This document shows positions 6,257 to 21,123 of a DNA stretch of 43,814 nucleotides, in pieces (the stretch's first letter is position 1; each line of letters starts with the position of its first letter). The notes below the pieces were generated by a model. The model was not told the DNA's origin, ran no database searches, and saw nothing but the letters and a program-made list of their open reading frames with translations. A program made the position numbers and the translations under genes. Source of the stretch: a virus; IMG/VR virus record IMGVR_UViG_3300023229_000029, positions 1-43,814 of that record, one strand, 5' to 3'.

Positions 6257-7744
6257 TTGTCTAAAATTTTAGTAGGACTGTATATATGTAGACATGACGC
6301 AAACATGTGTACATTTGATGGAAAAAATTTCAAATATCTACAATTAGAAAGATATTTTAATATTAAGCATTATTCTAATCCTAATCTTTTTGAATGGCAA
6401 AAAATTTTAAAGGATGTCTTTCATTATGATACATCTGATGTAAAAGCCATAGGCATATCGTTAAATAATAATTATAATGGAAACTATTATCAAAATCAAA
6501 ACGATGTTGTCGAACAAAAAAATATTTTTAATTTAGACGTACCTACCTTCAATGTTGATCATCATTACGCACATGCCTTATCTTCTTTAAGCAATACTAA
6601 AAATCATTTTGTATCTGACTGTCAAGGTAACTATAGAAGATGGATGTCTGTATTAGATGATAAAAAAATTATTGACACAAAACATGATCCAATGAACGGT
6701 AAATCATTTGGTCTTGCCTTAGATGAGATGGGATTTTTTATGGGAGTTGGGCCTGCTTATCATTTTGATAATGCAGGAAAAATAATGGCTTTTAATGGAT
6801 ATGGTGAAATTAATAATACTTATTTAGATTTTATGAATAAGTATGGATTAGAGCATTCTCAAATAACACTTGAATACAATAACTTAGAGAATGTTTTAAA
6901 TAAATTTTTGACTCCAAAAGATACATGGGATTTTGTCAAAACTTTTCATCATAGGTACTCTATATTATTTGAAGAATATTTAAAAAAATTTTTTAAAGAA
7001 AAAGATTCTTTTACTTACTCAGGAGGAGTAATGCAGAACATTGTTATTAATACTAAATTAAGAGAAAAGTTTTCAAATATTGAAATTAATCCTATAGGAT
7101 ATGATGGAGGATTATCAATAGGAGCTCTCGAAGCAGTAAGACAAATATATGATTATCCTAAAATTAAAATATCCAATTATCCTTTTATTCAAGAAGATGA
7201 GTGTCCTGAAGAACCTACACAAGACACAATAAATAAAACTGCTGAGTTGTTGGCTCAAGGTAAAGTTATAATGTGGTATCAAGGTAAAGGAGAAGCTGGT
7301 CCAAGAGCTTTAGGTAATAGATCAATATTAGTAAATCCAAATGTTAAATATGCCAAAGAAATGGTTAATGAAAAAGTAAAAAAGAGAGAGTGGTATAGAC
7401 CATACGGAGCTAGTGTAAAATTAGATAAATATAAAGATTATTTTAAATTAGATTGGGAGAGTCCATACATGCTATATCAGGCTCAATGTCTTGATCCTTT
7501 TAATTTGCAATCAATTACTCATGCAGATGGCACTTGTAGAATACAGACGGTCTCATCTACTAATAAAATATTTTATAGTTTATTGGACAGTTTTGACAAA
7601 ATTACAGGTTTTCCAATACTATTAAACACTTCTATGAATTTGCCTGGATATCCAATAACAGGGAGTTTTAATACTACAAAAAAAATGTTTGACAATTCGC
7701 AAGCTGATATATTAATCATAGGTAATGAAATACTTAAAAAGTAG
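6257..7744 (+). CDS. NodU-type carbamoyltransferase
   Basis: A 495-residue member of the NodU/CmcH/TobZ carbamoyltransferase family. The N-terminal Kae1-like domain carries the early ICRHDANMC motif, the HHYAH metal-binding motif (H102, H106) and D121. The C-terminal YrdC-like domain carries the hallmark GEAGPRALGNRSIL. The family moves carbamoyl from carbamoyl phosphate through carbamoyl-adenylate to a hydroxyl of a sugar or small molecule. The start is TTG at 6257, two bases after the previous stop; the next ATG would delete the conserved HDA motif. It lies between two fibre-type genes, suggesting a late role in modifying a surface glycan or virion component. Confidence 0.9.
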   Translation: MSKILVGLYICRHDANMCTFDGKNFKYLQLERYFNIKHYSNPNLFEWQKILKDVFHYDTSDVKAIGISLNNNYNGNYYQNQNDVVEQKNIFNLDVPTFNVDHHYAHALSSLSNTKNHFVSDCQGNYRRWMSVLDDKKIIDTKHDPMNGKSFGLALDEMGFFMGVGPAYHFDNAGKIMAFNGYGEINNTYLDFMNKYGLEHSQITLEYNNLENVLNKFLTPKDTWDFVKTFHHRYSILFEEYLKKFFKEKDSFTYSGGVMQNIVINTKLREKFSNIEINPIGYDGGLSIGALEAVRQIYDYPKIKISNYPFIQEDECPEEPTQDTINKTAELLAQGKVIMWYQGKGEAGPRALGNRSILVNPNVKYAKEMVNEKVKKREWYRPYGASVKLDKYKDYFKLDWESPYMLYQAQCLDPFNLQSITHADGTCRIQTVSSTNKIFYSLLDSFDKITGFPILLNTSMNLPGYPITGSFNTTKKMFDNSQADILIIGNEILKK

Positions 7745-7791: not shown

Positions 7792-9111
7792 ATGGCATCA
7801 ACATATTCAGATAGACTTAAATTAGAGATTATGTCCACAGGCGCAAACGCCAGTACATGGGGCACTAATACAAATAATAATTTAGATGTAATTGACGCTT
7901 TTATGTCAGGCTATCTTTCAAAGTCAGTTGCGGGTTCTTCTAACATTACTCTTACAACTGCTAATGCCTCAGATACAGCAGAATCATCTAATAGAACAAT
8001 ACGATTAACAGGTGCTTTAACAGGAAACATTGTTGTATTTATTCCCGCAGTAGAAAGTAAATATTCTTTTTTTAACAACACAACAGGTTCATGGACTTTA
8101 ACAATTGCAGCAACAGGACACACAGCAAATGGTATTGTCATTGCTCAGAGTGCAAAAACCACAGTATTTTGTGATGGCGCATCAAATTACAATGTAGAAA
8201 TTCTTTCTTCTACAGATGCAGGAGCCTTAGCCTCAGGAACTTTAGCTGACGCAAGATTTCCTGCAACATTACCTGCAGTCAGTGGAGCAAATTTAACAAA
8301 TTTAGACGCATCAAATTTAGCCTCAGGAACTTTAGCTGACGCAAGATTTCCTGCAACATTACCTGCAGTCAGTGGAGCAAATTTAACAAATTTAGACGCA
8401 TCAAATTTAGCCTCAGGAACATTAAGTAATGATCGTCTTGATACTGTACCTACAACTAAAGGTGGAACAGGACTAACAAGTCTTGGTTCTGCGGGACAAA
8501 TTATTCAAGTAAACGCACCAGGTGCAGCACTTGAGTATGCTGATGCAGGAGGCGGAGCAATTGGTAATGTTACAACAGCTACACAATTGACAAGTTCAGG
8601 TACTATTACAACTAGAGCAGATACTTTATTTGCTATCGGAATTGCAGTTGGTGGAGGCGGGTCAGGTGGCTGTGGTGGACACGGATTTGGTCAAGGCCAA
8701 GGACAACCAGGTGCAACAACTACAGGTTTAGGTTTGACAGGTGCAGGTGGAACACAAGGTGCAGCAGGGTATCCAAATCCAGGATCTAATGGCGGAGCCG
8801 GAGGAGCGGGGGGCGGAATGCTCGGTGGTGCAGCAGGCGGAACTGGCACTCCAGGAAAATTAGGTTCAGGAGGAGCAGGTGGTACAAATCCTTTTGGCTT
8901 AGGAAGTGGCGGACAGGGGTCTCCAGGAAGTGGTGAACATGGCGCAGGCGGAGGAGCAGGCGGAGCCTTTAGCGATATCACAGGACCTTTCACAAGAGGT
9001 GGTACACTTTCAGTGACAGTAGGAGCAGGCGGTATTGGTAGACCAGGTGGTAGAGGTACAGGTCAGTCTGGTGCAGCAGGAATGTTTAGATATTCGGAGT
9101 ATTATACATAA
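7792..9111 (+). CDS. Tail fibre with glycine-rich C-terminal tip
   Basis: A 439-residue tail-fibre protein. The N-terminus (TYSDRLKLEIMSTGANASTW) is typical of marine phage fibres that attach to the tail. Two identical 30-residue repeats (ASGTLADARFPATLPAVSGA type) form a shaft. From about residue 285 the protein becomes extremely Gly-rich, resembling adhesin tips built from polyglycine helices. This part contains X-Pro-Gly triplets (QPG, NPG, TPG, SPG, RPG). A GAGG ribosome binding site lies upstream and the tail chaperone gene follows at a TAATG overlap. Host recognition is the likely role. Confidence 0.85.
   Translation: MASTYSDRLKLEIMSTGANASTWGTNTNNNLDVIDAFMSGYLSKSVAGSSNITLTTANASDTAESSNRTIRLTGALTGNIVVFIPAVESKYSFFNNTTGSWTLTIAATGHTANGIVIAQSAKTTVFCDGASNYNVEILSSTDAGALASGTLADARFPATLPAVSGANLTNLDASNLASGTLADARFPATLPAVSGANLTNLDASNLASGTLSNDRLDTVPTTKGGTGLTSLGSAGQIIQVNAPGAALEYADAGGGAIGNVTTATQLTSSGTITTRADTLFAIGIAVGGGGSGGCGGHGFGQGQGQPGATTTGLGLTGAGGTQGAAGYPNPGSNGGAGGAGGGMLGGAAGGTGTPGKLGSGGAGGTNPFGLGSGGQGSPGSGEHGAGGGAGGAFSDITGPFTRGGTLSVTVGAGGIGRPGGRGTGQSGAAGMFRYSEYYT
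8227..8420 (+). repeat. 90-bp perfect tandem repeat in tail-fibre gene
   Basis: Two complete copies (8227-8316, 8317-8406) and the first 14 bases of a third are identical in DNA. The unit encodes 30 residues of the fibre shaft, so copy-number change keeps the frame and alters shaft length. Exact identity argues for recent duplication. Confidence 0.9.
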
Positions 9112-9458
9112 TGGCTAAGTGGTATAAGATCAATGATATTAAGGTAGTAGAAGTTTCTGATACCTCAGTAATAGGTTGGTATGAAACATCGAACGACAAT
9201 GTCGTACAGGGTTGGTGGTTTCAAAATGGTGATGTCGCTGATTCATATACTTACGGTATTGATGCTTTAAGAGAAGCTAGAGATTTAGCATTAACATCTT
9301 CTGATTGGACACAATTACCTAACTCACCTTTAACAGATTCAAAGAAAGCAGAATGGGCTACATATAGGCAGGAACTAAGAGATTTTCCTGCAAGTCACAC
9401 AACATTTACTGTAACCTTGGATGGCACAGACACAGTGTGGCCTGTTCAACCTTCCTAG
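9111..9458 (+). CDS. Tail fibre assembly chaperone (Phage_tail_APC-like)
   Basis: A 115-residue protein with a small beta-rich N-terminal part (Trp-rich GWYETSNDNVVQGWWFQNG). The diagnostic C-terminal motif follows: SDWTQLPNSPLTDSKKAEW, then YRQELRDFP. That motif is what I know as the phage tail assembly chaperone family (Pfam Phage_tail_APC). Such proteins help fold or trimerise the fibre encoded just upstream, and the two genes are coupled by a TAATG overlap. Confidence 0.85.
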   Translation: MAKWYKINDIKVVEVSDTSVIGWYETSNDNVVQGWWFQNGDVADSYTYGIDALREARDLALTSSDWTQLPNSPLTDSKKAEWATYRQELRDFPASHTTFTVTLDGTDTVWPVQPS

Positions 9459-10066
9459 TGTTTTTAAAAAATAATTATTGGTTTTATGATAAAGCACTTA
9501 ATCCAAAAGTGTGTCAGCAAATAATTAATTATGGTAATTCTTTAAAAGAAAACGCAGGTGTTACATCTGATACAAGTGAAGGCACTGAGGAAGATAAAAA
9601 CAAATTAGCTCAAATCAGAGAATCTAGAATAGCTTGGATTCCACAACTAAGATGGCTTAATATTTGGTTTTGGGATTTTGCTATGAACGCAAATAAATCT
9701 GCGAATTGGGATTTTGATGTTAATATGTCTGAACAATATCAATTTACAAAATATAGAAAAGGTCATTTTTATGGTTGGCATCAAGATTGTGGACCTGATA
9801 ATGTTGGAGATGGTTTACAAAGAAAACTATCTTTAGTTTGCACATTAACTAATCCTTCTGAGTATGAAGGAGGACAACTAGAAATATGTGATCCACAAAT
9901 GTCTCCTATCAGAAAGTTAGAAGATAAAATACATAGTGAAGAACAATGGTTCAATCAAGGAACAGTAATTATTTTTCCTAGTCATATGTGGCATCAAGTA
10001 AAAAAAGTTACTCAAGGTACTAGATATTCTTTAGTGACATGGTTTAGAGGAAAGGAATTTGAATGA
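9458..10066 (+). CDS. 2OG-Fe(II) oxygenase, prolyl-4-hydroxylase type (1)
   Basis: A 202-residue Fe(II)/2-oxoglutarate oxygenase. The metal triad is H108-x-D110 (in YGWHQDCG) and H179; R189 would bind 2-oxoglutarate. The strand after the triad (TNPSEYEGGQLEI) matches the P4Hc/PKHD type. I start it at GTG 9458, which overlaps the previous stop as TAGTG; an upstream in-frame GTG at 9437 would add seven residues inside the chaperone gene. It is the first of ten such enzymes and sits directly behind the tail fibre and its chaperone. Family role: hydroxylation of Pro or other protein residues; substrate unknown. Confidence 0.88.
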   Translation: MFLKNNYWFYDKALNPKVCQQIINYGNSLKENAGVTSDTSEGTEEDKNKLAQIRESRIAWIPQLRWLNIWFWDFAMNANKSANWDFDVNMSEQYQFTKYRKGHFYGWHQDCGPDNVGDGLQRKLSLVCTLTNPSEYEGGQLEICDPQMSPIRKLEDKIHSEEQWFNQGTVIIFPSHMWHQVKKVTQGTRYSLVTWFRGKEFE

Positions 10067-10716
10067 CAACATTTGAACAAGAAAATTACGTTATAATAAA
10101 AAAAGCTATTAGCGAAGAGATAGCTAGTTTTGTGAATGAATATTTTAATATGAAAATGAAGGTTACAGCAAAACTTTTTGAAGCAAATATGATTTCTCCT
10201 TTTGAAGAAAACTATGGAGTATTTGATGACCATCAAGTTCCTGGTGCTTTTTCTTCTTATTCAGATATAGCTATGGAAGTTTTACTTAATGCCTTACATC
10301 CTTTAATGGAAAAAGAAACAGGTATTAAATTAATATCTAATAATTCTTATGCACGTGTATATTTAAAAGGTCAAAAATTACCAAGACATAAAGACAGATT
10401 TGCATGTGAAATATCTACTACCCTTAATTTGGGAGGAGATCCATGGCCTATTTTTTTGGAGCCTGATGATAAAAAAGGTATAGAAGAAAATGGAAAATAC
10501 ATATCTGAAAATAGTAAGGGTCTTAAAGTAGATTTAGGTCCTGGTGACATGTTAATATATAAAGGAAATTTACTCGAACATTGGAGAGAACCTTTAGAGG
10601 GAGACAGATGTACACAAGTATTTCTTCATTATAACAGAGCTGATCATAAAGAGCCGCCATTTGATGGAAGAGAATTTTTAGGTTTACCAAGTTGTTTCGT
10701 ATTAGGCAAAAAATAA
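10063..10716 (+). CDS. 2OG-Fe(II) oxygenase (2)
   Basis: A 217-residue Fe(II)/2OG oxygenase. H109-x-D111 (LPRHKDRF) and H173 form the metal site and R182 is the likely cosubstrate ligand (HWREPLEGDR). PGDMLIYKG before the distal His is typical of the double-stranded beta-helix. It starts in an ATGA overlap with oxygenase 1, so both are made together. It shares little sequence with its neighbour beyond the fold, arguing against simple tandem duplication. Substrate unknown. Confidence 0.87.
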   Translation: MTTFEQENYVIIKKAISEEIASFVNEYFNMKMKVTAKLFEANMISPFEENYGVFDDHQVPGAFSSYSDIAMEVLLNALHPLMEKETGIKLISNNSYARVYLKGQKLPRHKDRFACEISTTLNLGGDPWPIFLEPDDKKGIEENGKYISENSKGLKVDLGPGDMLIYKGNLLEHWREPLEGDRCTQVFLHYNRADHKEPPFDGREFLGLPSCFVLGKK

Positions 10717-10774: not shown

Positions 10775-11596
10775 ATGATTAAACCTGAAGAAATAAAAGA
10801 TAAGAATTTTAAGTTATTTTTAGGAATGCCTATGTATGGAGGAATGTTATCTGAAACTACATTACATGGTTTATTGGATTTACAACAATGGTCGTTGTCA
10901 AAACAAAAAAATGTTGAAATGAGAATACAGACCATGGGTAATGAAAGTTTAATAACTAGAGCAAGAAACACGATTGTGTCAATGATGATGGATGCTCAAG
11001 ATTATGTTGCGACTCATTTACTTTTTATAGATGCAGACATTGGTTTTAGTTGGCAAAACGTTGAAAGATTAATTTGCGCTGATAAAGACATTGCCTGTGG
11101 AGTATATCCTAGAAAACATTTACATTTAGAAAAAGCTAATAAATATATTCAAGAAAATCCTGATATATCTCCTGATGAATTAGAGGCTAGAATATTAGGA
11201 TATAATATTAACTTTGATAACCCTAAAGAATTAAAAGGAGAAAATGGATTTTTCAAAGTACAAGAAGCCGCTACAGGAATGATGTTAATTAAAAGAGAGG
11301 TTTTAAGAAAAATGATGAAAGCTTACCCTGAAAGAAAATATGAATCTGATCAAATTGTCAATGGTGGCTACTATAAATCAGATAATTGTTACGATTTGTT
11401 TGCAGTTGGTCCTTATGAAACTTTGGATCAAAAAAGATATTTATCAGAGGATTATTACTTTTCAAGATTGTGGCAACAACTTGGTGGAGAAATTTGGGCA
11501 GATTTAGCAAGTCCATTAACTCATTTTGGAAACAGAGCATTCAAGGGACATGTAGGTACTTTAGTAACAAAAGTAGATGATTCAAATAATAGATAA
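10775..11596 (+). CDS. GT-A fold glycosyltransferase
   Basis: A 273-residue glycosyltransferase-like protein with nucleotide-sugar/metal motif D86-A-D88 (LLFIDADIGF), an ESLITRARN segment near residues 57-65 and an acidic catalytic-type SEDYYFSR near the end. GT2-like phage proteins of this kind are known from marine viruses. A GGAG ribosome binding site precedes the ATG after a 58-base gap, and the gene lies between oxygenases 2 and 3. It may glycosylate a hydroxyl made by a neighbouring hydroxylase, or a surface glycan. Confidence 0.8.
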   Translation: MIKPEEIKDKNFKLFLGMPMYGGMLSETTLHGLLDLQQWSLSKQKNVEMRIQTMGNESLITRARNTIVSMMMDAQDYVATHLLFIDADIGFSWQNVERLICADKDIACGVYPRKHLHLEKANKYIQENPDISPDELEARILGYNINFDNPKELKGENGFFKVQEAATGMMLIKREVLRKMMKAYPERKYESDQIVNGGYYKSDNCYDLFAVGPYETLDQKRYLSEDYYFSRLWQQLGGEIWADLASPLTHFGNRAFKGHVGTLVTKVDDSNNR

Positions 11597-12086
11597 TTTT
11601 TTTAGTATATATAGTAGAGACTACTATTTATTTGCGAAACAGCTTACGTTTCATGAGTCATTAAATTATAAAAATCTTATGGGATTTGATGACAAGCATG
11701 TAGATTTTCCAGGACGCAGAACTTTACAACTTAGCACAGAGTCACCTTTCTTTTATTTAAATATTGTAAATAATGTTTATGATAGGTTTGGTATAAAATT
11801 AGACGATACAGCAGGAGTATATTGTCATGTTAGATTTGAAAATGATAGAGATGATTGGATACACACCGATAAAGGAAAAACAATATTGGTATTTTTATCT
11901 GAAACAAATTTAGACTCTGGAACATGTTTTTTTGATAATAATGATAATCTTACTGATAACATTAGTTTTATACATAATAGAGCTGTAATGTTTGATGGTA
12001 ATATAAAACACATGTCAAAAAAAAATTATGGTTCAACAATAGAAGATGGCAGGATGACTATTAACATATTTATTGAAAATGCTTAA
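11577..12086 (+). CDS. 2OG-Fe(II) oxygenase (3)
   Basis: A 169-residue Fe(II)/2OG oxygenase. H96-x-D98 (DWIHTDKGK) and H145 form the metal site and R159 is the cosubstrate Arg. It starts inside the glycosyltransferase gene (20-base overlap) and its end overlaps oxygenase 4. Compact length and the motif SETNLDSGTCFF between the two halves suit a small P4H-like hydroxylase. Substrate unknown. Confidence 0.85.
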   Translation: MIQIIDNFFSIYSRDYYLFAKQLTFHESLNYKNLMGFDDKHVDFPGRRTLQLSTESPFFYLNIVNNVYDRFGIKLDDTAGVYCHVRFENDRDDWIHTDKGKTILVFLSETNLDSGTCFFDNNDNLTDNISFIHNRAVMFDGNIKHMSKKNYGSTIEDGRMTINIFIENA

Positions 12087-12618
12087 ATCTGTAAAAGAAG
12101 GGTCTATATTATTAAAGCCTCAATTTCTACCTTTAGAGGTTTATAATTCCACTCTTGATATATTTAACAACAATAAATTTTACGCAACATATCAGCCTTC
12201 GGAAATATTCTATGGTAATAGATTACAGGCTTATCCTTGTCATCAGTATATATTAAGAGAAGATGAAAATAAAATATTTACAGATCTTATGTGTCAATTA
12301 TTAGAGACTCCTATAGAACTTTTTACCATTGCAAGAAAAATTATAACCACAGAGATACAACAGTCAAAGTGCAATACAAAATATGGCTACATACATCAGG
12401 ACTCTCATTGTGATCTAGCGGCTGTATTACCTTTTGATCAAACAGTAGACGGAGGAACAGCTTTCTTTGAGAATATTTGGGATAAGTATCCCGATATAAC
12501 AGTAGGTGCATATCCTAACAGGCTTATTGTATACAACTCACAAAGACCTCACTCGCCTTCACATGATTTTACATTTGCAGAAAGAAAGGTTTTAGCCTTT
12601 ATGATAAAGTTGAAATGA
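12079..12618 (+). CDS. 2OG-Fe(II) oxygenase, DUF6445-like (4)
   Basis: A 179-residue protein with H106-x-D108 (YIHQDSHCD), DGGTAFF, distal H158 (QRPHSPS) and R169: a complete Fe(II)/2OG site. The layout reminds me of DUF6445, a 2OG oxygenase-like family. I use ATG 12079, which overlaps the previous stop by eight bases; an in-frame TTG at 12073 would add two residues. It is coupled to oxygenase 5 by ATGA. Substrate unknown. Confidence 0.8.
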   Translation: MLKSVKEGSILLKPQFLPLEVYNSTLDIFNNNKFYATYQPSEIFYGNRLQAYPCHQYILREDENKIFTDLMCQLLETPIELFTIARKIITTEIQQSKCNTKYGYIHQDSHCDLAAVLPFDQTVDGGTAFFENIWDKYPDITVGAYPNRLIVYNSQRPHSPSHDFTFAERKVLAFMIKLK

Positions 12619-13166
12619 AACTAGAAGTAATACAGTTTTCAATTCATAGTTTATATTCTGTCTATATTGTAAGAGATTATTTATCTCAAGAAGAGTTGCA
12701 CAAGCTTGATAAGGCTCTCAGAGATAAAACAGAAATAGATGAGATGAATAAATCTACTAATGTAAAAGGTAATATGACTTCTTATTCTGCTCTACAAGAT
12801 GTACAAGAATGCACAGATTTGATTGGTAAGGCAATCTTTACCATTGATTCAATAGTTAAACTAAGGAGCTCTCATGGAAGAGATAATTTTCTATATCGTG
12901 TTACTGATGCTTGGGGAATGAGACACAACACTAATGACTATTCTATAAATCATGCTCATTATCCTTCTCATTGGTCTGCTGCTTTTTATACTACTGTGCC
13001 TGATCCTAAGCCATTTATGAAGCTTATTGAGTTTAATAATAAAATAGAATTGGATAGTAATATGTTAATTATATTTCCTGCTATGGTTAATCACGAGGTA
13101 TCTATTAATGAATCTGATAAAGAAAGAATATCAATGGCTTTTAATATTGATGTGGAAAAACAGTAA
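12615..13166 (+). CDS. 2OG-Fe(II) oxygenase, HxH (TIGR02466-like) type (5)
   Basis: A 183-residue protein. After AWGMRHNTND comes H113-A-H115 (INHAHYPSHWS), distal H160 (MVNHEV) and R171. This is the HxH form of the fold seen in the TIGR02466/2OG-FeII_Oxy_5 group rather than the usual HxD. It ends the second oxygenase run, 20 bases before the gp10-like tail gene. It starts with ATGA on oxygenase 4. Whether the second His binds iron cannot be told from sequence. Confidence 0.78.
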   Translation: MKLEVIQFSIHSLYSVYIVRDYLSQEELHKLDKALRDKTEIDEMNKSTNVKGNMTSYSALQDVQECTDLIGKAIFTIDSIVKLRSSHGRDNFLYRVTDAWGMRHNTNDYSINHAHYPSHWSAAFYTTVPDPKPFMKLIEFNNKIELDSNMLIIFPAMVNHEVSINESDKERISMAFNIDVEKQ

Positions 13167-13186: not shown

Positions 13187-15010
13187 ATGTCCTTAGTAAA
13201 TTTTAGACCAGATCCAGGTATTAATAAAGAAATCACCGATTACACAGGTGCAAATAAGTGGACTGACGGTGATATGGTTAGATTTTTCCAAGGATTACCA
13301 CAAAAAATAAAAGGTTGGGAAAAATTTATATCTACAACCCTTGTAGGAGTGGCAAGAGATCAGCACGCTTGGGTGGCATTAGATGGCACAAGATATAACG
13401 CCATAGGCACAGACAGAAAATTATACGTAATAGAAGAGGGTACTGCATTTGACATTACTCCTTTAAGAAGAACACAAGCTCGTACAAATCCTTTTACCAC
13501 TAATGCCACTACTTCAGTTGTTGTTACTGATACAGCACATGATGCTCATCAAGGTGATTTTGTTACTTTTGATAGTTTTAGTGCAATAGATGATTTAGAT
13601 ATGAACAAAGAGTTTGAAGTAACTTCTATTGTAAACACTTCCGCATATGTCGTAACTCATACAAGTACCGCTTCAGGATCTACCGCTTCGGGCGGAGGCA
13701 CGGGCAATATGAAGTATCAAATAAACATTGGTCCTTCTCTGTCAACTTCAGCTTACGGTTGGGGTACAGATACCTGGGGAGCAGGTACATGGGGCACACC
13801 TTCAACCTCATCAAACGTAACATTAGAAGCTAGACAATGGTCATTAGATAATTTTGGTGAAGATTTAATAGCAACTGTTTTAAATGGTGGTGCTTTTAAA
13901 TGGGACACATCAGTAGGTGTATCAACAAGAGCATCTCAAATTACTAACACTCCCACAGCTTCAAGGCTAAGTTTGATATCTACTCCTGATAGACATTTAA
14001 TATTTATGGGTACTCAATCGACAATAGGTTCAGAGCCACAAGATGATTTATTAATAAGATTCTCTAGTCAAGAAGATATAGAAACTTATCAACCAACGGC
14101 TGAGAATACAGCTGGATCACTAAGAGTTGCTGACGGATCGCGAATCGTGGGAGCAACAAGATCAAGAGGTCAGATACTTGTATGGACCGATACTTCTTTG
14201 CACTCTCTACAATTTATAGGTCCACCATTTACTTTTGGTCTAAGACAATTAGGTCAATCCTGTGGTATTATAGGACAACACGCTGCTATAGATATTAATG
14301 GTAATTCTTATTGGATGTCTCAAAGTTCTTTTTATGCTTTCGATGGTACTGTTAAAAAACTACCTTGCACTGTAGAACAGTTTGTTTTTAATAATATAAA
14401 TCAAACAGGAGCAGAAAATGCTTTTGCAGGACATAACGGTGAATTCAATGAAATATTATGGTTTTACCCTAGAACAGGATCAGATCAAATAAACGCTATT
14501 GTAGCTTATAATTATTTAGAGGGAACTTGGTGGACAGGAACATTAGCTCGATCAACGTGGATTGATAGAGAAGTTTATGATATCCCTATAGCTACTGAAT
14601 TTTTTCCTTCAGCAATAGCTAACAACGAAGTTATTCTCGGACTAACAGCAGGATCTAGTCAAGCATTTATACATGAGACAGGAAATGATGCTGATGGAGC
14701 AGCAATTACAGCTTATGTAAAGTCAGGTGTAGTAGAATTAGGGACAGGGGATGAGTTTTCATTTGTATCAAAATTAATTCCTGATATACAAAATCAAGAA
14801 GGAGTTTTGAACGCAAAGTTAGAGTTTAAAAATTATCCAAATAATAGTATAAGTGTCACAAAAACTGCTAGCTTTACTGATAGCACAGAGTTTGTTAGTT
14901 TAAGAGGCAGAGGAAGAGAGTTTACTGTTAATCTTGTGTCTAACACTACAGGCACATCTTGGAGGGCGGGTACTCAAAGATTTGATATACAACCTGATGG
15001 CAGAAGATAA
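13187..15010 (+). CDS. P22 gp10-like tail hub/DNA stabilisation protein
   Basis: A 607-residue protein with a start (VNFRPDPGINKEITDYTGAN) and overall beta-propeller-like repeats (TPDRHLIFMG, LVWTDTSLHSLQF, YWMSQSSFYAFDG) that I recognise from P22 gp10-type head-completion/tail proteins of marine podoviruses. It would plug the neck and link the adaptor to the tail tip. A Trp/Gly motif (GWGTDTWGAGTWGT) lies at residues 191-204. It is a structural gene lodged between two runs of oxygenase genes. Confidence 0.82.
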   Translation: MSLVNFRPDPGINKEITDYTGANKWTDGDMVRFFQGLPQKIKGWEKFISTTLVGVARDQHAWVALDGTRYNAIGTDRKLYVIEEGTAFDITPLRRTQARTNPFTTNATTSVVVTDTAHDAHQGDFVTFDSFSAIDDLDMNKEFEVTSIVNTSAYVVTHTSTASGSTASGGGTGNMKYQINIGPSLSTSAYGWGTDTWGAGTWGTPSTSSNVTLEARQWSLDNFGEDLIATVLNGGAFKWDTSVGVSTRASQITNTPTASRLSLISTPDRHLIFMGTQSTIGSEPQDDLLIRFSSQEDIETYQPTAENTAGSLRVADGSRIVGATRSRGQILVWTDTSLHSLQFIGPPFTFGLRQLGQSCGIIGQHAAIDINGNSYWMSQSSFYAFDGTVKKLPCTVEQFVFNNINQTGAENAFAGHNGEFNEILWFYPRTGSDQINAIVAYNYLEGTWWTGTLARSTWIDREVYDIPIATEFFPSAIANNEVILGLTAGSSQAFIHETGNDADGAAITAYVKSGVVELGTGDEFSFVSKLIPDIQNQEGVLNAKLEFKNYPNNSISVTKTASFTDSTEFVSLRGRGREFTVNLVSNTTGTSWRAGTQRFDIQPDGRR

Positions 15011-15180: not shown

Positions 15181-15534
15181 ATGGCAGACGTATTTAGAAG
15201 ATTTACACAAACAGCACCTAACACAGCGGTCAATACACTTTTTACAGTTCCTACTCCTGATCTTGCAGCGACTCCTCCTGTTCCTGTTTCAACTTTTATT
15301 GTGAAAACTATTATTCTACATAACTCCGCTGGTTCAGGAACCGTTAATGTAAAATTAACACATAATGATGGCGCGGTAGATGTAGAGATAAATAATATAG
15401 ATGTAGCTCACGGAACTACTCAACAACTTAATGGCCCTTATGTTTATGCTGCTGGAGACGCTTTAAAACTTCAAGCCGATGCAACAACTCTTAGTTCAGA
15501 TGTTTCTATATTGGAGATTAAGCAACAACTATAA
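15181..15534 (+). CDS. Probable small virion structural protein
   Basis: A 117-residue all-beta-looking protein starting MADVFRRFTQTAPNTAVNTL, with strands such as STFIVKTIILHNS and TVNVKLTH. It resembles small fibre-base or decoration proteins in marine phages (from memory, no named family). It is coupled by TAATG to oxygenase 6, showing that structural and oxygenase genes share one transcript. Confidence 0.65.
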   Translation: MADVFRRFTQTAPNTAVNTLFTVPTPDLAATPPVPVSTFIVKTIILHNSAGSGTVNVKLTHNDGAVDVEINNIDVAHGTTQQLNGPYVYAAGDALKLQADATTLSSDVSILEIKQQL

Positions 15535-16028
15535 TGAGATTAATACAAGATGGGATGTTGAATAAAGAAGCCTGTGACGCATTAATTAATCTCTATCAAA
15601 ACAACAGGCCACTAACTAAATTGTGGCACAGCACAAATACACTAAATTTAGCGCAAGTAGAAAATCAATACGATCAATTAGCAAAAAAAATAATATTTGG
15701 TATGACAACTTTTTTAAGCACAAAAGGAGCTGTAGTTTATCCTGAACTTTGTCAGGTAGTTCACAGATCTGAAGGTACTTCACACGGTTTACACGTAGAT
15801 GATGCAAGAACTTCAACTGTAATGACCTCTATAACATACCTTAATGAGGACTATAAAGGTGGAGAAACATTTTTTGAAGACGATTTTGCAGTTCCACCTA
15901 AGTTAGGTAGATCCTTGTTCTTTGATGGAAGAGCTTTTAGGCACGGTGTAAATGAAATCAAAGGCAACAGATTCACATTAGCCATATGGTACGCATCAAA
16001 CGTGAACGATTTTTATGGAATTAGTTAA
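15534..16028 (+). CDS. 2OG-Fe(II) oxygenase, prolyl-4-hydroxylase type (6)
   Basis: A 164-residue, textbook small P4H-type oxygenase: H87-x-D89 (GLHVDDAR), the LNEDYKGGETFF strand, distal H137 (FRHGVNEI) and R146. It opens the third and longest oxygenase run. It starts at TAATG on a structural gene and its end overlaps the degenerate cupin by 14 bases. Substrate unknown; protein Pro or Asn/Asp hydroxylation is the family norm. Confidence 0.88.
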   Translation: MRLIQDGMLNKEACDALINLYQNNRPLTKLWHSTNTLNLAQVENQYDQLAKKIIFGMTTFLSTKGAVVYPELCQVVHRSEGTSHGLHVDDARTSTVMTSITYLNEDYKGGETFFEDDFAVPPKLGRSLFFDGRAFRHGVNEIKGNRFTLAIWYASNVNDFYGIS

Positions 16029-16680
16029 ACCTCCGCTCCCTAAAGAAATAGAAAGAAGAATTGCGGAGAAACAGATTCTTAGTTATGAGTTTGTTACCTA
16101 TCTACAAGATCTTATGAAGAGCATTATTAAGAATGAGGATATTGTTATATATCAATTTTCCAAACTTGCAAAATACAGAGTTTTAAAAATAAAAGAAACA
16201 GACATATTAGAAAAAGTAGCAGATAGATATAGATGGCCTAGAGAGTATGAGAAAAAACAACCTTCAATTGAAGTCGTAACATTGGGTGGCAAAGTAGTAG
16301 AAAGTGATTTTAAAGAAGACAACTTTGCTGATGCTTTTGAAAATATTTGCAGGTATCTCGCAGGAGAAGAACTGATATTGCATCGATGTCAAACTTTAAC
16401 AAAAAATTTAACATATACTTGTAGTCTTTTTTCATCAATACTAGGTAGAAATTTAAATTTTAGCGGACATATGAGATTGGGCAGTAAACCAATAAAATCA
16501 ATAAGTTTTTCTTATGATTACCATATTATAATAAAAAATGCTTATGGGCTTTTAAAATGTAGTTTAAATGGTAAGATAAAAATACTCAAAAAAGAAGGAG
16601 CTATTTTTGTTCGCAAAGGTACAAAAATTAAAATACAAGAAATTAAAGAACCAACGTTTTACATAATTTATCATTTATGA
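16015..16680 (+). CDS. Cupin-like protein lacking metal ligands
   Basis: A 221-residue protein with no HxD motif. Its last 100 residues line up by eye with the JmjC/Cupin_4 protein at 20233: the ILHRCQTLTKN, YHIIIKNAYG and EGAIFVRKG segments match FIQDCSRINKR, LIIQVEGK and PGDCVFVPLG. In this alignment the first metal His becomes S166 (D168 is kept) and the distal His becomes Ile. It therefore looks like a catalytically dead paralogue, perhaps a partner or binding subunit. That is my inference; the match needs a profile search. It is coupled by overlaps on both sides. Confidence 0.6.
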   Translation: MELVKPPLPKEIERRIAEKQILSYEFVTYLQDLMKSIIKNEDIVIYQFSKLAKYRVLKIKETDILEKVADRYRWPREYEKKQPSIEVVTLGGKVVESDFKEDNFADAFENICRYLAGEELILHRCQTLTKNLTYTCSLFSSILGRNLNFSGHMRLGSKPIKSISFSYDYHIIIKNAYGLLKCSLNGKIKILKKEGAIFVRKGTKIKIQEIKEPTFYIIYHL

Positions 16681-17195
16681 ATATTTTTAGAGCACAAATA
16701 AAAAAAGACATTATAGATCTTTCTTTGAGCACAATACAAGATATGAAAAAGTCTATGAACGAAGTAAGTTGGAACTGCGATATACGAACATCATTCAACC
16801 TTACCGACAACATATTAAATATTAAAGAATTATGGCCATTAAAATTTTCTATTCTTGAAAGCATACATGCGTACATGTTGAACAATAATAAGTTTTTTGA
16901 AGGATATATAAAAAAGTCTTGGGTCAATATATATGAAAAAGGTTTTTATCAAGAGTTTCATAATCATAAAGATGAAATTGTAAAATATATTTGTGGTGTG
17001 GTTTATTTTACACCTATGTCAAGTTCAATAGAGTTTGGCATTGAAGAGAGGATTGAGCACAAACCTGAAGTTGGTGACATTTTAATTTTTAATGACGATC
17101 AATTACATAGAGTTTTACCTCACAAAGATAGTGATTTAAGAATAAGTTTAGCTTTTAATTATCAAAAAATAGACACATGGAAAGGACTTAAATGA
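16677..17195 (+). CDS. 2OG-Fe(II) oxygenase, HxH type (7)
   Basis: A 172-residue protein of the TIGR02466-like group: SWVNIYEKGFYQEF, then H95-N-H97, distal H144 (DDQLHRVLPH) and R155 (LRISLAF). The HxH is shared with oxygenases 5 and 10. It starts in an ATGA overlap with the degenerate cupin and ends in an ATGA overlap with the halogenase, so it could supply or process a product of that enzyme. Substrate unknown. Confidence 0.82.
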   Translation: MNIFRAQIKKDIIDLSLSTIQDMKKSMNEVSWNCDIRTSFNLTDNILNIKELWPLKFSILESIHAYMLNNNKFFEGYIKKSWVNIYEKGFYQEFHNHKDEIVKYICGVVYFTPMSSSIEFGIEERIEHKPEVGDILIFNDDQLHRVLPHKDSDLRISLAFNYQKIDTWKGLK

Positions 17196-18676
17196 AGATT
17201 TGTATACTAGGGGGAGGTACAGCAGGTTTTATGACTGCAGCGACATTAGTTAAATTATTTCCACAACATGAGATAAAACTTATAGAGTCTCCTCAAGAAA
17301 AAACTGTTGGTGTCGGTGAGAGTACAATATTAGGTTTTAGGTCATGGCTTAAACTTTTAGATATCAAAGATGAAGACTTTATGAGAGATTGTAATGCTAT
17401 TTACAAACTAAGCATAAAGTTCACTGATTTTTATAAAAAAGGTGAGAGCTTTCATTATCCATTCGGAGAAATTAAATATCCTTTAGATGATTGGTGGTTA
17501 TGTAAAACAGCAGACTCTGATTTACCTATTGATACCTATGCTTCTTATAATTATGAGGCCATGACTCAAATAGAGTCAGGACTAATGCACGAGCACGCTG
17601 ATTTTAAAAAAGAAACTGCTTATCATTTCGATGCAAAGCTTTTTGCCGATTGGCTTAAAAAAAAATATTGCATACCTAAAGGGTTAAAATATATCTCGGA
17701 GCATATCAAAGATATTGAACAAGATGATAATGGAATAAAATCACTGAATGGAAAACATGAAGCCGATCTTTACATAGACTGTACAGGTTTTAAATCTATA
17801 TTACTTGGAGAAACTCTTAAAGAACCTTTTGAATCTTATGAAGATTTATTGCCAAATAATTCAGCTTGGGCAACTAAAATACCTTACAAAGATAAAGATA
17901 AAGAATTAGTGCCGTACACAAATTGCACTGCTCATAATAATGGATGGATATGGAATATACCTTTGTGGAATAGAATTGGTACAGGTTATGTTTATTCAGA
18001 TAAATTTACTAGTGATGAAGATGCATTGTCAGATTTTAAAAATTATCTAGGAAAAAAAGATTTGGAGTTTAATAAAATAAAAATGAGAGTGGGAATACAT
18101 AGAAGACTGTTTGTAAAAAATGTATGCGCTGTTGGTTTATCTGCTGGTTTTATCGAACCTTTAGAAAGTAACGGTTTATACACTGTTCATCAGTTTTTAA
18201 TTACTTTAGTTAGACAGATGCAAAGAGAAAAGATAAGTCAATGGGATAAAGACAACTATACATTTGGTTGTAAAAAAATATTTAAACCATTTGCAGACTT
18301 TGTAGCTCTTCATTACGCTTTATCACATAGAACTGACACACCTTATTGGAAAGCAAATTTTAATAAAACTTGGGATGAAAAATTGTATACATTACAGCCT
18401 ACGTCAGTTTACACCTTATTAAATCACGCATTTTTAAGAGATGAAAATTTTTCTTTTGACACACAAGGAGGAGCACATTGTATAGCGACAGGTATGAATT
18501 GGAAACCTAATGATGAAAATATGATAAAATTACAGGACATTACAATGAAAGATATAAAAGAAAGGGCTGAAGAAATAATGAAACAATTAAAGGAAAGAAA
18601 GGAAAAATGGAAAAAAGAATGTAATGAAGAAGGTGTTTCATTTCATGATTTTCATAAACATAATGTTTATTACTAA
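17192..18676 (+). CDS. Flavin-dependent (tryptophan-type) halogenase
   Basis: A 494-residue flavin-dependent halogenase. It has an N-terminal FAD-binding GGGTAG (7-12), VGVGEST (39-45) and K72 aligned with the catalytic lysine of PrnA/RebH (CNAIYKLSIKF). The halogenase signature W-x-W-x-I-P lies at 252-257, and F-x-x-P-x-x-S-x-G at 320-328 (FIEPLESNG). All diagnostic residues are present, so it is probably active. The family uses FADH2, O2 and chloride or bromide to halogenate Trp or other aromatics; a reductase partner is not visible here. The C-terminus is a charged helix. It is coupled by ATGA to oxygenase 7 and overlaps oxygenase 8. Substrate unknown: free Trp, a peptide or protein Trp/Tyr are options. 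Confidence 0.9.
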   Translation: MKICILGGGTAGFMTAATLVKLFPQHEIKLIESPQEKTVGVGESTILGFRSWLKLLDIKDEDFMRDCNAIYKLSIKFTDFYKKGESFHYPFGEIKYPLDDWWLCKTADSDLPIDTYASYNYEAMTQIESGLMHEHADFKKETAYHFDAKLFADWLKKKYCIPKGLKYISEHIKDIEQDDNGIKSLNGKHEADLYIDCTGFKSILLGETLKEPFESYEDLLPNNSAWATKIPYKDKDKELVPYTNCTAHNNGWIWNIPLWNRIGTGYVYSDKFTSDEDALSDFKNYLGKKDLEFNKIKMRVGIHRRLFVKNVCAVGLSAGFIEPLESNGLYTVHQFLITLVRQMQREKISQWDKDNYTFGCKKIFKPFADFVALHYALSHRTDTPYWKANFNKTWDEKLYTLQPTSVYTLLNHAFLRDENFSFDTQGGAHCIATGMNWKPNDENMIKLQDITMKDIKERAEEIMKQLKERKEKWKKECNEEGVSFHDFHKHNVYY

Positions 18677-19196
18677 CGAAAATTTTTTATCAAAAGACAG
18701 TATTAATTTTATTGAAAAAACTGTGTTGAGTAGTTCTTTTCCTTACTTTTATAATGCACATACAATACATGATCCACCAGACAACAACGCTTATATGGGT
18801 CATGATGTACTTAGAAGACCAGAAGAAAGAGCACCAGGGGAAAGCTTTAATTCTACTTATGGCTCACAGTTTCTTAAAATGTTAAAAGATTTTTCGGATA
18901 CAACAGACATAAAAATAAACGATGTATTTAGAATATCAGTTAATATTACTTTTGCGGGTCTGACCGATAATTGTCCCATTCACACTGATCATTCATATCC
19001 ACATCATCAACTTCTAATATATTTAAATGACTGTGATTTAAACTCTAACACAATTGTTTTGTCAGAAGATAGAGCTGAGATAGTGCATTCAATAAAACCA
19101 AAAAAATATAAAGGAGTTTGCTTTAGTTCTGCCCCTCACTATATGGTCTTTCCAAAAAAAGGGTCTAGAATAGTAGCAGTTTTTACATTTGCATGA
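18663..19196 (+). CDS. 2OG-Fe(II) oxygenase (8)
   Basis: A 177-residue Fe(II)/2OG oxygenase with H107-x-D109 (CPIHTDHSYPHHQ), a hydrophobic LLIYLND strand, distal H159 (APHYMV) and R169. I use ATG 18663 (14-base overlap with the halogenase); in-frame ATGs at 18645 and 18624 would lengthen it by 6 or 13 residues, and an AGAAGG sits 11 bases before 18645. It lies directly behind the halogenase. Substrate unknown. Confidence 0.82.
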   Translation: MFITNENFLSKDSINFIEKTVLSSSFPYFYNAHTIHDPPDNNAYMGHDVLRRPEERAPGESFNSTYGSQFLKMLKDFSDTTDIKINDVFRISVNITFAGLTDNCPIHTDHSYPHHQLLIYLNDCDLNSNTIVLSEDRAEIVHSIKPKKYKGVCFSSAPHYMVFPKKGSRIVAVFTFA

Positions 19197-19666
19197 ATAA
19201 ATTTGTAGACAATGTTTGGTATCAAGATAATTTCTATGATCGTGATCAATTAATAGAAATAAATAAACAAATTAAAGAAGGTAATTGGCAGTATAAAGGA
19301 AGCTCTGGCACGGTTGGTGAAGACAATAAATTTTGGTATCAACCTCTAACCGAAAAACAAACAGATTTTTTTAAAGTAATTACTAATAATAAAATAATAA
19401 GGTCTTATGCAAATGGTCAAACTATGACACAACACAGTGGTTTTCATGCGGATGATGGTGATATGACTTATCTTATATATACAGATGAGTGGGACTTGGA
19501 TGATGGCGGAGGCACTGAGTTTCTTCTTGATAATAATACCACTTGTAGTATTTATCCTAAATTTAATAGAGTCGTAAAGTTCAAAGCTAACATATCACAC
19601 AGAGCTTTACCTAATATTAAACAAAACTCATTTAGAATGTCAGTAGCATTAAAAACTCATGAGTGA
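19193..19666 (+). CDS. 2OG-Fe(II) oxygenase, prolyl-4-hydroxylase type (9)
   Basis: A 157-residue small P4H-type oxygenase: H85-x-D87 (GFHADDGD), DDGGGTEF, distal H136 (ISHRALPN) and R148 (FRMSVALK). It starts in an ATGA overlap with oxygenase 8 and ends within the start of oxygenase 10. With the full triad it should be active. Substrate unknown. Confidence 0.87.
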   Translation: MNKFVDNVWYQDNFYDRDQLIEINKQIKEGNWQYKGSSGTVGEDNKFWYQPLTEKQTDFFKVITNNKIIRSYANGQTMTQHSGFHADDGDMTYLIYTDEWDLDDGGGTEFLLDNNTTCSIYPKFNRVVKFKANISHRALPNIKQNSFRMSVALKTHE

Positions 19667-20261
19667 AGTTATTAGTATATTTCCTACAGCTATTAGCGTA
19701 CATGATATTGATGTTAATTTTTCTGATGAAGATAAAAAATTTATAAATTTATGTTTAAATGATCAATACGAAAACACAGGCAACACTACTTCATATGATA
19801 CTTATGTCTTAGAAAAGCTACCAATCTTAAAAGAAAAATTAACGAATAAAATTAATTTTCATTTTTATGAAACTTTAAAACATGTCAAAGAAAGTGAAAT
19901 ATATATTACACAATCTTGGTTAAATCTTACAAAGAAGGATCAATTTCATCATACACATAAACATCCAAACTCTATACTAGCAGGTGTTTTTTATCTACAA
20001 ACTGTTGAAGATGATTGCATATCTTTTGACAATTCTTTAAGAGTGGATCAGGTAAGACCATCAATAGAGTCATTTAATTCTTATAACTCTAGTTTGTATA
20101 ATTTACCTGTACGTAAAAATATGCTAGTAATATTTCCCTCAAGTTTAATGCATAATGTTCCCACAGTAAAAACTGATCAAGTTAGGATAAGTTTAGCATT
20201 TAATACCTTTGTGAAAGGAGTACTAGGTAAAGATGATCAACTTTCAAGAGTCAATTTGTAA
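19659..20261 (+). CDS. 2OG-Fe(II) oxygenase, HxH (TIGR02466-like) type (10)
   Basis: A 200-residue protein starting with the usual group opening (ISIFPTAISVHDI). It then has SWLNLTKKDQF, H100-x-H102 followed by P103, LAGVFYLQ, distal H165 (SLMHNV) and R176 (VRISLAF). It is the clearest TIGR02466/2OG-FeII_Oxy_5 member of the three HxH proteins. It overlaps oxygenase 9 by eight bases and the Cupin_4-like gene by 29. Substrate unknown. Confidence 0.84.
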   Translation: MSEVISIFPTAISVHDIDVNFSDEDKKFINLCLNDQYENTGNTTSYDTYVLEKLPILKEKLTNKINFHFYETLKHVKESEIYITQSWLNLTKKDQFHHTHKHPNSILAGVFYLQTVEDDCISFDNSLRVDQVRPSIESFNSYNSSLYNLPVRKNMLVIFPSSLMHNVPTVKTDQVRISLAFNTFVKGVLGKDDQLSRVNL

Positions 20262-20841
20262 ACAGGCAGCTGAATTAAAACCTTTTGCCTATAAAAATAA
20301 GATTAACGATATTTTTTCATGGCAAGAATTGGCAGCCTTATTAAATACACCTTTAAACACAGATAGGTTTCATGCTACAGGTGTTGAGTGTAGACCAGTA
20401 AATATTGCTAATGAATGGCAGTCAGTTCCTAACGTTATTGCTCCAAAAGACATATATAATTATGCAAGAAATAATGTTTGTTTTATTCAAGACTGTAGTA
20501 GAATCAATAAAAGAATAAATAAAATTTCTCATGATTTAGAGTGGGCTACGGGTTATTCATGTGATGCACATATCTTTTTTTCTGTTTTAGACAATGAGAA
20601 GGACACTGATGGCTTTGGTATGCATAAGGACGTATGTCACAACTTAATCATACAAGTTGAGGGTAAAACTAATTTTACCGTGAAAGATGAGTTTGAAATA
20701 GTATTGGAACCAGGAGATTGTGTTTTTGTTCCACTTGGAGTGTATCATCAAGCTAAATCTATAGAAAAAAGACTCTCAGTCAGTTTTCCAATGAATCCTG
20801 CTCACAAGACAAAACAAGACAGATTTTGGATTGATTTCTAG
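20233..20841 (+). CDS. JmjC/Cupin_4 (RoxA-like) oxygenase
   Basis: A 202-residue protein with the Cupin_4 pattern: GFGMH131-K-D133, LIIQVEGK, PGDCVFVPLGVYH172. This is the layout of bacterial ribosomal oxygenases such as RoxA (YcfD), which hydroxylate a ribosomal protein, and of other JmjC-type enzymes. It is much shorter than RoxA and lacks an obvious winged-helix domain. It closes the enzyme island, overlapping oxygenase 10 by 29 bases. Target could be a virion or host protein; unknown. Confidence 0.78.
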   Translation: MINFQESICKQAAELKPFAYKNKINDIFSWQELAALLNTPLNTDRFHATGVECRPVNIANEWQSVPNVIAPKDIYNYARNNVCFIQDCSRINKRINKISHDLEWATGYSCDAHIFFSVLDNEKDTDGFGMHKDVCHNLIIQVEGKTNFTVKDEFEIVLEPGDCVFVPLGVYHQAKSIEKRLSVSFPMNPAHKTKQDRFWIDF

Positions 20842-20865: not shown

Positions 20866-21123
20866 ATGGCAAAGATTGTAGATGAATCTAAGGTTTTGCG
20901 TTATGACGTACTTCCTAATGGCGTGGAAATTCCTGTTTATAGTGCAAAAGTAGAGACTACTGTCACTAATATTAAAACGGGTCAAGAGTATAATACACAC
21001 GAGGAATGTCAGGCAGATATTGATAATCCAAGTACAGAAACAACAGAAGCAGATATTAGAAGAGATGTTCATGTAACAGCTCCTAATGTATTCGCTGGGG
21101 CTTATGTGCCTCCCGAGGAATAA
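20866..21123 (+). CDS. Small conserved phage protein
   Basis: An 85-residue acidic protein (KIVDESKVLRYDVLPNGVEI, then a Thr/Glu-rich part and ADIRRDVHV). I recall near relatives next to ejection-protein genes in marine phages but no function. It follows the oxygenase island after a 24-base gap and precedes the first large internal-virion gene by three bases. Confidence 0.65.
   Translation: MAKIVDESKVLRYDVLPNGVEIPVYSAKVETTVTNIKTGQEYNTHEECQADIDNPSTETTEADIRRDVHVTAPNVFAGAYVPPEE

Follow-up and report, generated by a model that had tools for sequence, protein, structure and literature searches.

The window analysed here, the whole stretch of 43,814 nucleotides of the IMG/VR record IMGVR_UViG_3300023229_000029, contains on its plus strand, at positions 17192-18676, a gene that almost certainly encodes a flavin-dependent halogenase (FDH) of 494 amino acids. 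The enzyme is a further member of the already known VirX1 kind and, classified by its sequence, falls into the 'group C', VirX1-type, non-tryptophan halogenases. What appears new is the presence of a VirX1-type halogenase at the gp10 site in the phage group related to HTVC023P; a limited literature search found no earlier published halogenase at this site in these phages.

Identification of the halogenase and predicted structure

The open reading frame is full length from ATG to stop and is matched by the Pfam family Trp_halogenase (PF04820, E 6.4e-103) and, over residues 1-476, by PHROG 2928 'tryptophan halogenase' (E 4.1e-145). About 30 solved halogenases were matched in a phmmer search against the PDB, with VirX1 at the top (E 1.5e-100). 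Genes for DNA polymerase, helicases, primase and a gp10-like protein are located on the same contig, so that the initial annotation of a complete phage-encoded FDH is confirmed both by these matches and by the phage replication genes. The motifs that it had listed were all found: GxGxxG (GGGTAG, 7-12), VGVGEST (39-45, with the GVGEST box at 40-45), K72, WIWNIP (WxWxIP, 252-257) and FIEPLESNG (320-328). In 31 viral relatives there is little or no variation in the GVGEST box, at K72 and W252/W254/P257 and in most of GFIEPLES, and such a motif set, as read from the sequence, is far beyond chance. Alignment to the tryptophan halogenases and VirX1 gives K72 as the catalytic lysine, E325 (the second E of EPLES) as the catalytic glutamate and S326 as the serine of the halide site; E322 was ruled out as catalytic glutamate by the same alignment. 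We take the PrnA counterparts of K72, E325 and S326 to be K79, E346 and S347, respectively. Among 52 viral copies, K72 is kept in all, E325 in 51 (the remaining one being X) and S326 in 50.

An AlphaFold2 model of the halogenase, built on the viral alignment, reached a pLDDT of 89.1 and a pTM of 0.89. Only residues 317-327 were poorly defined, a span that includes the EPLES strap and that was modelled without FAD. In a Foldseek search with this model the first six matches were VirX1 chains (TM 0.90-0.92). VIA-align gave a Z of 43.5 and an rmsd of 2.0 Å over 485 residues for VirX1, and a similar Z with 2.4-2.8 Å over fewer residues for most tryptophan FDHs; as Z puts several of the latter slightly above VirX1, which has the lowest rmsd and the longest alignment, Z alone was not used for placement. 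The fold match extends over the whole length, and K72 and E325 align with the catalytic residues of VirX1, PrnA and RebH, so the misplacement of these residues that had been proposed as an argument against the enzyme was not seen when its model was compared with PrnA and RebH. By likeness to VirX1, the active site would be open. The intact motifs and the confident model support the earlier expectation of activity, and the halogenase is predicted to be very probably active. No flavin reductase was recognised among the window proteins scanned with Pfam, a scan that did not cover some small open reading frames, in agreement with the initial annotation.

Comparison of the window copy with its three nearest relatives yielded a dN/dS of 0.05-0.11, which is read as strong constraint and not as an exact value because dS is partly saturated, and which indicates that the gene is maintained. 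That the gene is decayed or misassembled was ruled out on the strength of its 48 relatives, of near-identical contigs recovered from other samples and of this dN/dS.

Substrate class and relationship with VirX1

In FDHs of groups A and B the Trp4 motif contacts tryptophan; group C, to which BrvH and VirX1 belong, has nothing equivalent (PMC8269204). In one and the same search, this motif was found in 0/66 phage copies and in 23/104 bacterial copies, the latter being the positive control. Its absence from the phage halogenases makes free tryptophan an unlikely substrate, and we hold with high confidence that the window enzyme does not act on it. The viral halogenase profile aligns to VirX1 end to end (3-503), whereas its alignment to most tryptophan FDHs ends at about profile position 410-460. 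At the Trp1/Trp2 positions the window halogenase has STILGF and YPFGE, and VirX1 has STLGHF and YPFGP. The enzymes PrnA, RebH, PyrH and Thal share with the window halogenase the fold, the FAD and halide motifs, the lysine and the glutamate, but the window enzyme lacks Trp4 and its C-terminal region cannot be aligned to theirs by sequence. The group C enzymes BrvH, Xcc-b100-4156, KrmI and MibH (PMC8269204) are likewise devoid of Trp4 and have the same chemistry residues, although they are bacterial and not phage-borne. The phage halogenases carry GEST where most bacterial copies have GEAT.

VirX1 is the product CPUG_00131 of cyanophage Syn10. It has been characterised (structure 6QGM) and is reported to iodinate many arenes in preference to brominating them and to have a large open site (PMC8407142). 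It has in common with the window halogenase the phage clade, the fold (TM 0.92), the GVGEST, YPFG, WNIP and EPLES motifs and a full-length alignment; the two proteins differ in sequence (about 36% identity in the structure alignment), in size (531 versus 494 amino acids) and in origin, VirX1 coming from a cyanomyovirus and the window enzyme from a Pelagibacter-type podovirus. The VirX1 gene directly adjoins a second, divergent halogenase gene (locus L056, 7986-11091), and tandem pairs are also present in S-RIM44, P-TIM40 and P-RSM6. In the initial annotation, halogenases were noted in a few marine phages; they do occur in phages, but more widely than that, with VirX1 already characterised and 78 phage records of the searched collection carrying a relative.

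A tree built from 77 halogenases united VirX1 with all but two of the phage copies in one group (SH-aLRT 99). The two exceptions, the long-branched copy of HTVC008M and a second, likewise long-branched copy in L031, were placed outside the VirX1 clade, and a single bacterial sequence (L057) was placed inside it. Recent capture of the gene from a bacterium was rejected, the phage halogenase clade being separate. The L057 gene (7977-9578) encodes a phage-type halogenase, 49% identical, and has ordinary bacterial genes around it on a contig that appears to be genuine deltaproteobacterial chromosome; it may have left the phage pool by transfer or may point to an unsampled source.

The phage and the oxygenase cassette around gp10

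The DNA polymerase and the gp10-like protein are closest to those of the Pelagibacter phages HTVC023P and HTVC027P and of the metagenomic phage 023Pt_psg01 and of phage DSL-LC04. The contig belongs to a marine podovirus akin to HTVC023P/027P. The window has a G+C content of 33.6%, and its host is likely Pelagibacter or another low-GC alphaproteobacterium. Neither terminase nor portal was recognised among the window proteins scanned, and the IMG/VR record may be a fragment. A Methyltransf_24/TylF-like methyltransferase gene is found on the far side of the genome (39618-40250), with homologues near gp10 in the sister phages L149, L163 and L199. A role as defence system was rejected after a PADLOC search with five proteins gave no match.

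Besides ten to eleven proteins of the 2OG-Fe(II) type, the window encodes a carbamoyltransferase of the NodU type and a protein resembling glycosyltransferases. Most of these genes are located between that for the tail fibre and the one at 20866, and they flank gp10 on both sides. On the plus strand upstream of gp10 are located the carbamoyltransferase gene (6257-7744), which lies between tail genes and recurs in several halogenase loci, and the gene for a probable tail-fibre protein (7792-9111), next to which a tail-fibre assembly protein is encoded (9111-9458). These are followed, on the plus strand, by a 2OG-Fe(II) oxygenase (9437-10066; PF13640, E 3.7e-18), a protein with the PHROG label 'ferrochelatase' (10063-10716), the glycosyltransferase-like protein (10775-11596; phrog_1574, weakly phrog_34859), which is present in 76/79 sister contigs, two 2OG-type oxygenases (11577-12086, phrog_274, HTD...H; 12073-12618, phrog_1644/274, HQD...H) and a 2OG-Fe(II) oxygenase (12615-13166; PF13759). 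The gp10-like 'stabilization / needle head' structural protein (13187-15010, plus strand) anchors the cassette.

Downstream, also on the plus strand, a small conserved protein (15181-15534) separates gp10 from a 2OG-Fe(II) oxygenase (15534-16028; PF13640), a JmjC-fold, ribosomal-oxygenase-like protein (16015-16680) and another 2OG-Fe(II) oxygenase (16677-17195; PF13759/phrog_81). The halogenase gene is followed by genes for a 2OG-Fe(II)-type oxygenase of the phrog_274 family (18624-19196; HTD...H, no Pfam match), two 2OG-Fe(II) oxygenases (19193-19666, PF13640; 19659-20261, PF13759 and TIGR02466-like) and a JmjC/cupin_8 oxygenase with HxD...H (20233-20841). The tight coupling with oxygenases described in the initial annotation is borne out: the end of the upstream oxygenase gene (17195) and the start of the halogenase gene share the four nucleotides ATGA, and the downstream frame overlaps the halogenase 3' end. 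The real start of the latter frame is possibly a later ATG at 18663, and either start precedes the halogenase stop.

Some PHROG labels in this region are doubtful. Outside the PHROG label itself, no ferrochelatase match was obtained for 10063-10716 in Pfam, NCBIfam or PDB sequences. The 'ferrochelatase' proteins (phrog_2954), with homologues in L018, L050, L055 and other loci and in HTVC023P and HTVC008M, have an invariant HxD...H, and their weak matches are to 2OG/Tet-like dioxygenases. Since only weak 2OG matches accompany the invariant HxD...H, the 10063-10716 product is a probable 2OG oxygenase, and published iron/heme interpretations of phrog_2954 genes may have followed a wrong label. 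The label 'DNA endonuclease (V)' that PHROG 274 and 2297 bear (15534-16028, 19193-19666 and 18624-19196) looks wrong by sequence; two of these proteins match Pfam 2OG-FeII_Oxy_3, and for 15534-16028 Pfam contradicts the PHROG label 'DNA endonuclease'.

The JmjC family of the 20233-20841 protein gives profile matches to the ribosomal oxygenases NO66, MINA53 and YcfD with E values of 1e-14 to 1e-11 (NO66, 1.3e-14), and its H131, D133 and H172 (HxD...H) are invariant. This family recurs in cyanomyovirus halogenase arrays, that of Syn10 among them. When modelled, the 16015-16680 protein showed the same fold as this JmjC protein (Z 14.8 to NO66; 2.4 Å over 159 residues against 4y33). It has lost the metal ligands, and its distant homologues in sister phages appear to keep the ligand histidines. 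From the model, it is probably a pseudo-oxygenase, possibly a substrate-binding one. A fixed halogenase-JmjC pair was rejected as obligate, as just 13/80 JmjC loci fetched have a halogenase within the flank examined.

Variation of the cassette in other phages

In 79 sister contigs with gp10 at least 78% identical, 2OG-type genes were present in 78 and a halogenase in 4, a count that is a lower bound since many of these contigs are short; among the 49 sister contigs of at least 12 kb the halogenase count was likewise 4. The gap between gp10 and the homologue of the 20866 gene measures 0.6-4.3 kb in sister contigs without halogenase and 5.9-6.5 kb in those with it, and 5.86 kb in the window. The gp10-flanking region is hypervariable (L137-L215), with 2OG oxygenase sets that differ between sister phages. 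The sister lineage L141/L229 largely retains the block 15181-20841. At the gp10 site of HTVC023P, 2OG genes are present and no halogenase is annotated. The 2OG and 'ferrochelatase' partner genes were already known from HTVC023P-type pelagiphages (Wittmers 2022, PMC9599517), a related lineage with the same gene families at the same gp10-adjoining site as the window, but a halogenase is not described there. For cyanomyoviruses, the presence of prnA and of carbamoyltransferase, 2OG and 'ferrochelatase-domain' genes had likewise been described (PMC3037559).

Most viral halogenase loci have oxygenases within 5 kb, often as immediate neighbours. The cyanomyoviruses Sf-CH11, S-CREM1 and Sf-FP1 show tail/structural genes, then the halogenase and then a 2OG array, and the HTVC008M halogenase adjoins a dioxygenase among terminase genes. 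Halogenase loci with no oxygenase nearby are L025, L041-L043, L047, S-B64 and S-MbCM6, and in S-MbCM6 the halogenase adjoins psbA. The oxygenases kept by halogenase-free sister phages do not depend on the halogenase, and this persistence, together with the rejection of an obligate JmjC pair, makes the halogenase best seen as an optional addition. A substrate shared by halogenase and oxygenases, suggested in the initial annotation, stays plausible but unproven, given the halogenase-free sisters with oxygenases and the halogenase loci without them.

Proposed role and alternative explanations

The evidence is evenly balanced on whether the VirX1-type group C halogenase is one tool in a phage protein-modification array directed at a virion or host protein; that its own target is a polypeptide is a slightly more tentative proposal. 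By analogy with family chemistry, FADH2 from a host reductase, oxygen and halide would give HOX at the flavin, HOX would reach K72 through the tunnel, and E325 would position or activate an electron-rich arene at the open site. From the gene context, this arene would be an aromatic residue in a polypeptide chain. The most likely target would be a tail protein of the virion (or else a protein of the host), which the neighbouring oxygenases would also hydroxylate during late infection, the halogenase being one interchangeable tool of a variable array. The hint of a polypeptide substrate, which falls short of proof, comes from the resemblance of the JmjC partner to ribosomal protein hydroxylases, from the 16015-16680 protein with its matching fold and from the site adjoining tail genes, a location that may reflect merely a tolerant insertion site. 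Counted against the array are the 2OG arrays without halogenase (78/79 versus 4/79 sister contigs), the JmjC genes that are usually without one, the oxygenase-free phage halogenase loci and the small arenes that VirX1 itself takes in vitro. A limited literature search found no proteomic evidence for hydroxylated or halogenated virions.

It is also possible, at a lower probability, that the VirX1-type halogenase is a free-standing auxiliary metabolic gene whose product acts on a small molecule made by the host or the phage (an aromatic metabolite, a quinone, a lipid or a surface-glycan component) and whose substrate is unrelated to the oxygenases. The many small arenes reportedly accepted by VirX1 (PMC8407142) and the phage halogenases located apart from oxygenases favour this explanation, and the nearby carbamoyltransferase and glycosyltransferase-like genes fit a decoration of glycans or metabolites; it is weakened by the halogenase lying among oxygenases in most loci, by the conservation of the 15181-20841 block in L141/L229 and by the fact that no further genes for making an aromatic metabolite were noticed. 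Production of chlorotryptophan from free tryptophan for an antibiotic such as pyrrolnitrin would agree with the names in Pfam, PHROG and GenBank and was proposed by the S-CREM1 authors for the cyanophage gene (PMC9964418). This was nevertheless rejected on the missing Trp4 motif, with its bacterial positive controls, and is highly improbable also because the C-terminal part can be aligned to VirX1 and not to tryptophan FDHs and no prnB-D genes were seen. Hardly more probable is that the protein is no halogenase in practice, being either a flavin enzyme whose function is its HOX or H2O2 output or the product of a decayed gene. The phage has no visible reductase and the 317-327 stretch is of low confidence in the apo model, but this stretch is the EPLES strap, modelled in the absence of its cofactor, and the near-invariance of K72, E325, S326 and WxWxIP across viral copies and the low dN/dS contradict such an explanation.

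Biological significance

To our knowledge, no natural substrate is known for viral halogenases. The window locus points to a testable substrate class, tail or host proteins, and close phage relatives with oxygenases and without halogenase supply natural comparisons. The evidence speaks against the usual reading of phage 'tryptophan halogenases' as chlorotryptophan makers. A broader proposal, which at present we consider rather unlikely, is that an exchangeable system is shared by marine phages whose morphotypes are unrelated. It would comprise 2OG hydroxylases, relatives of the JmjC ribosomal oxygenases, a pseudo-enzyme with the JmjC fold and sometimes a VirX1-type halogenase, and would hydroxylate and halogenate phage tail or host proteins post-translationally, which would then be what viral halogenases do in nature. 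Because SAR11-type phages rank among the commonest ocean viruses, organohalogen production by them could matter ecologically.
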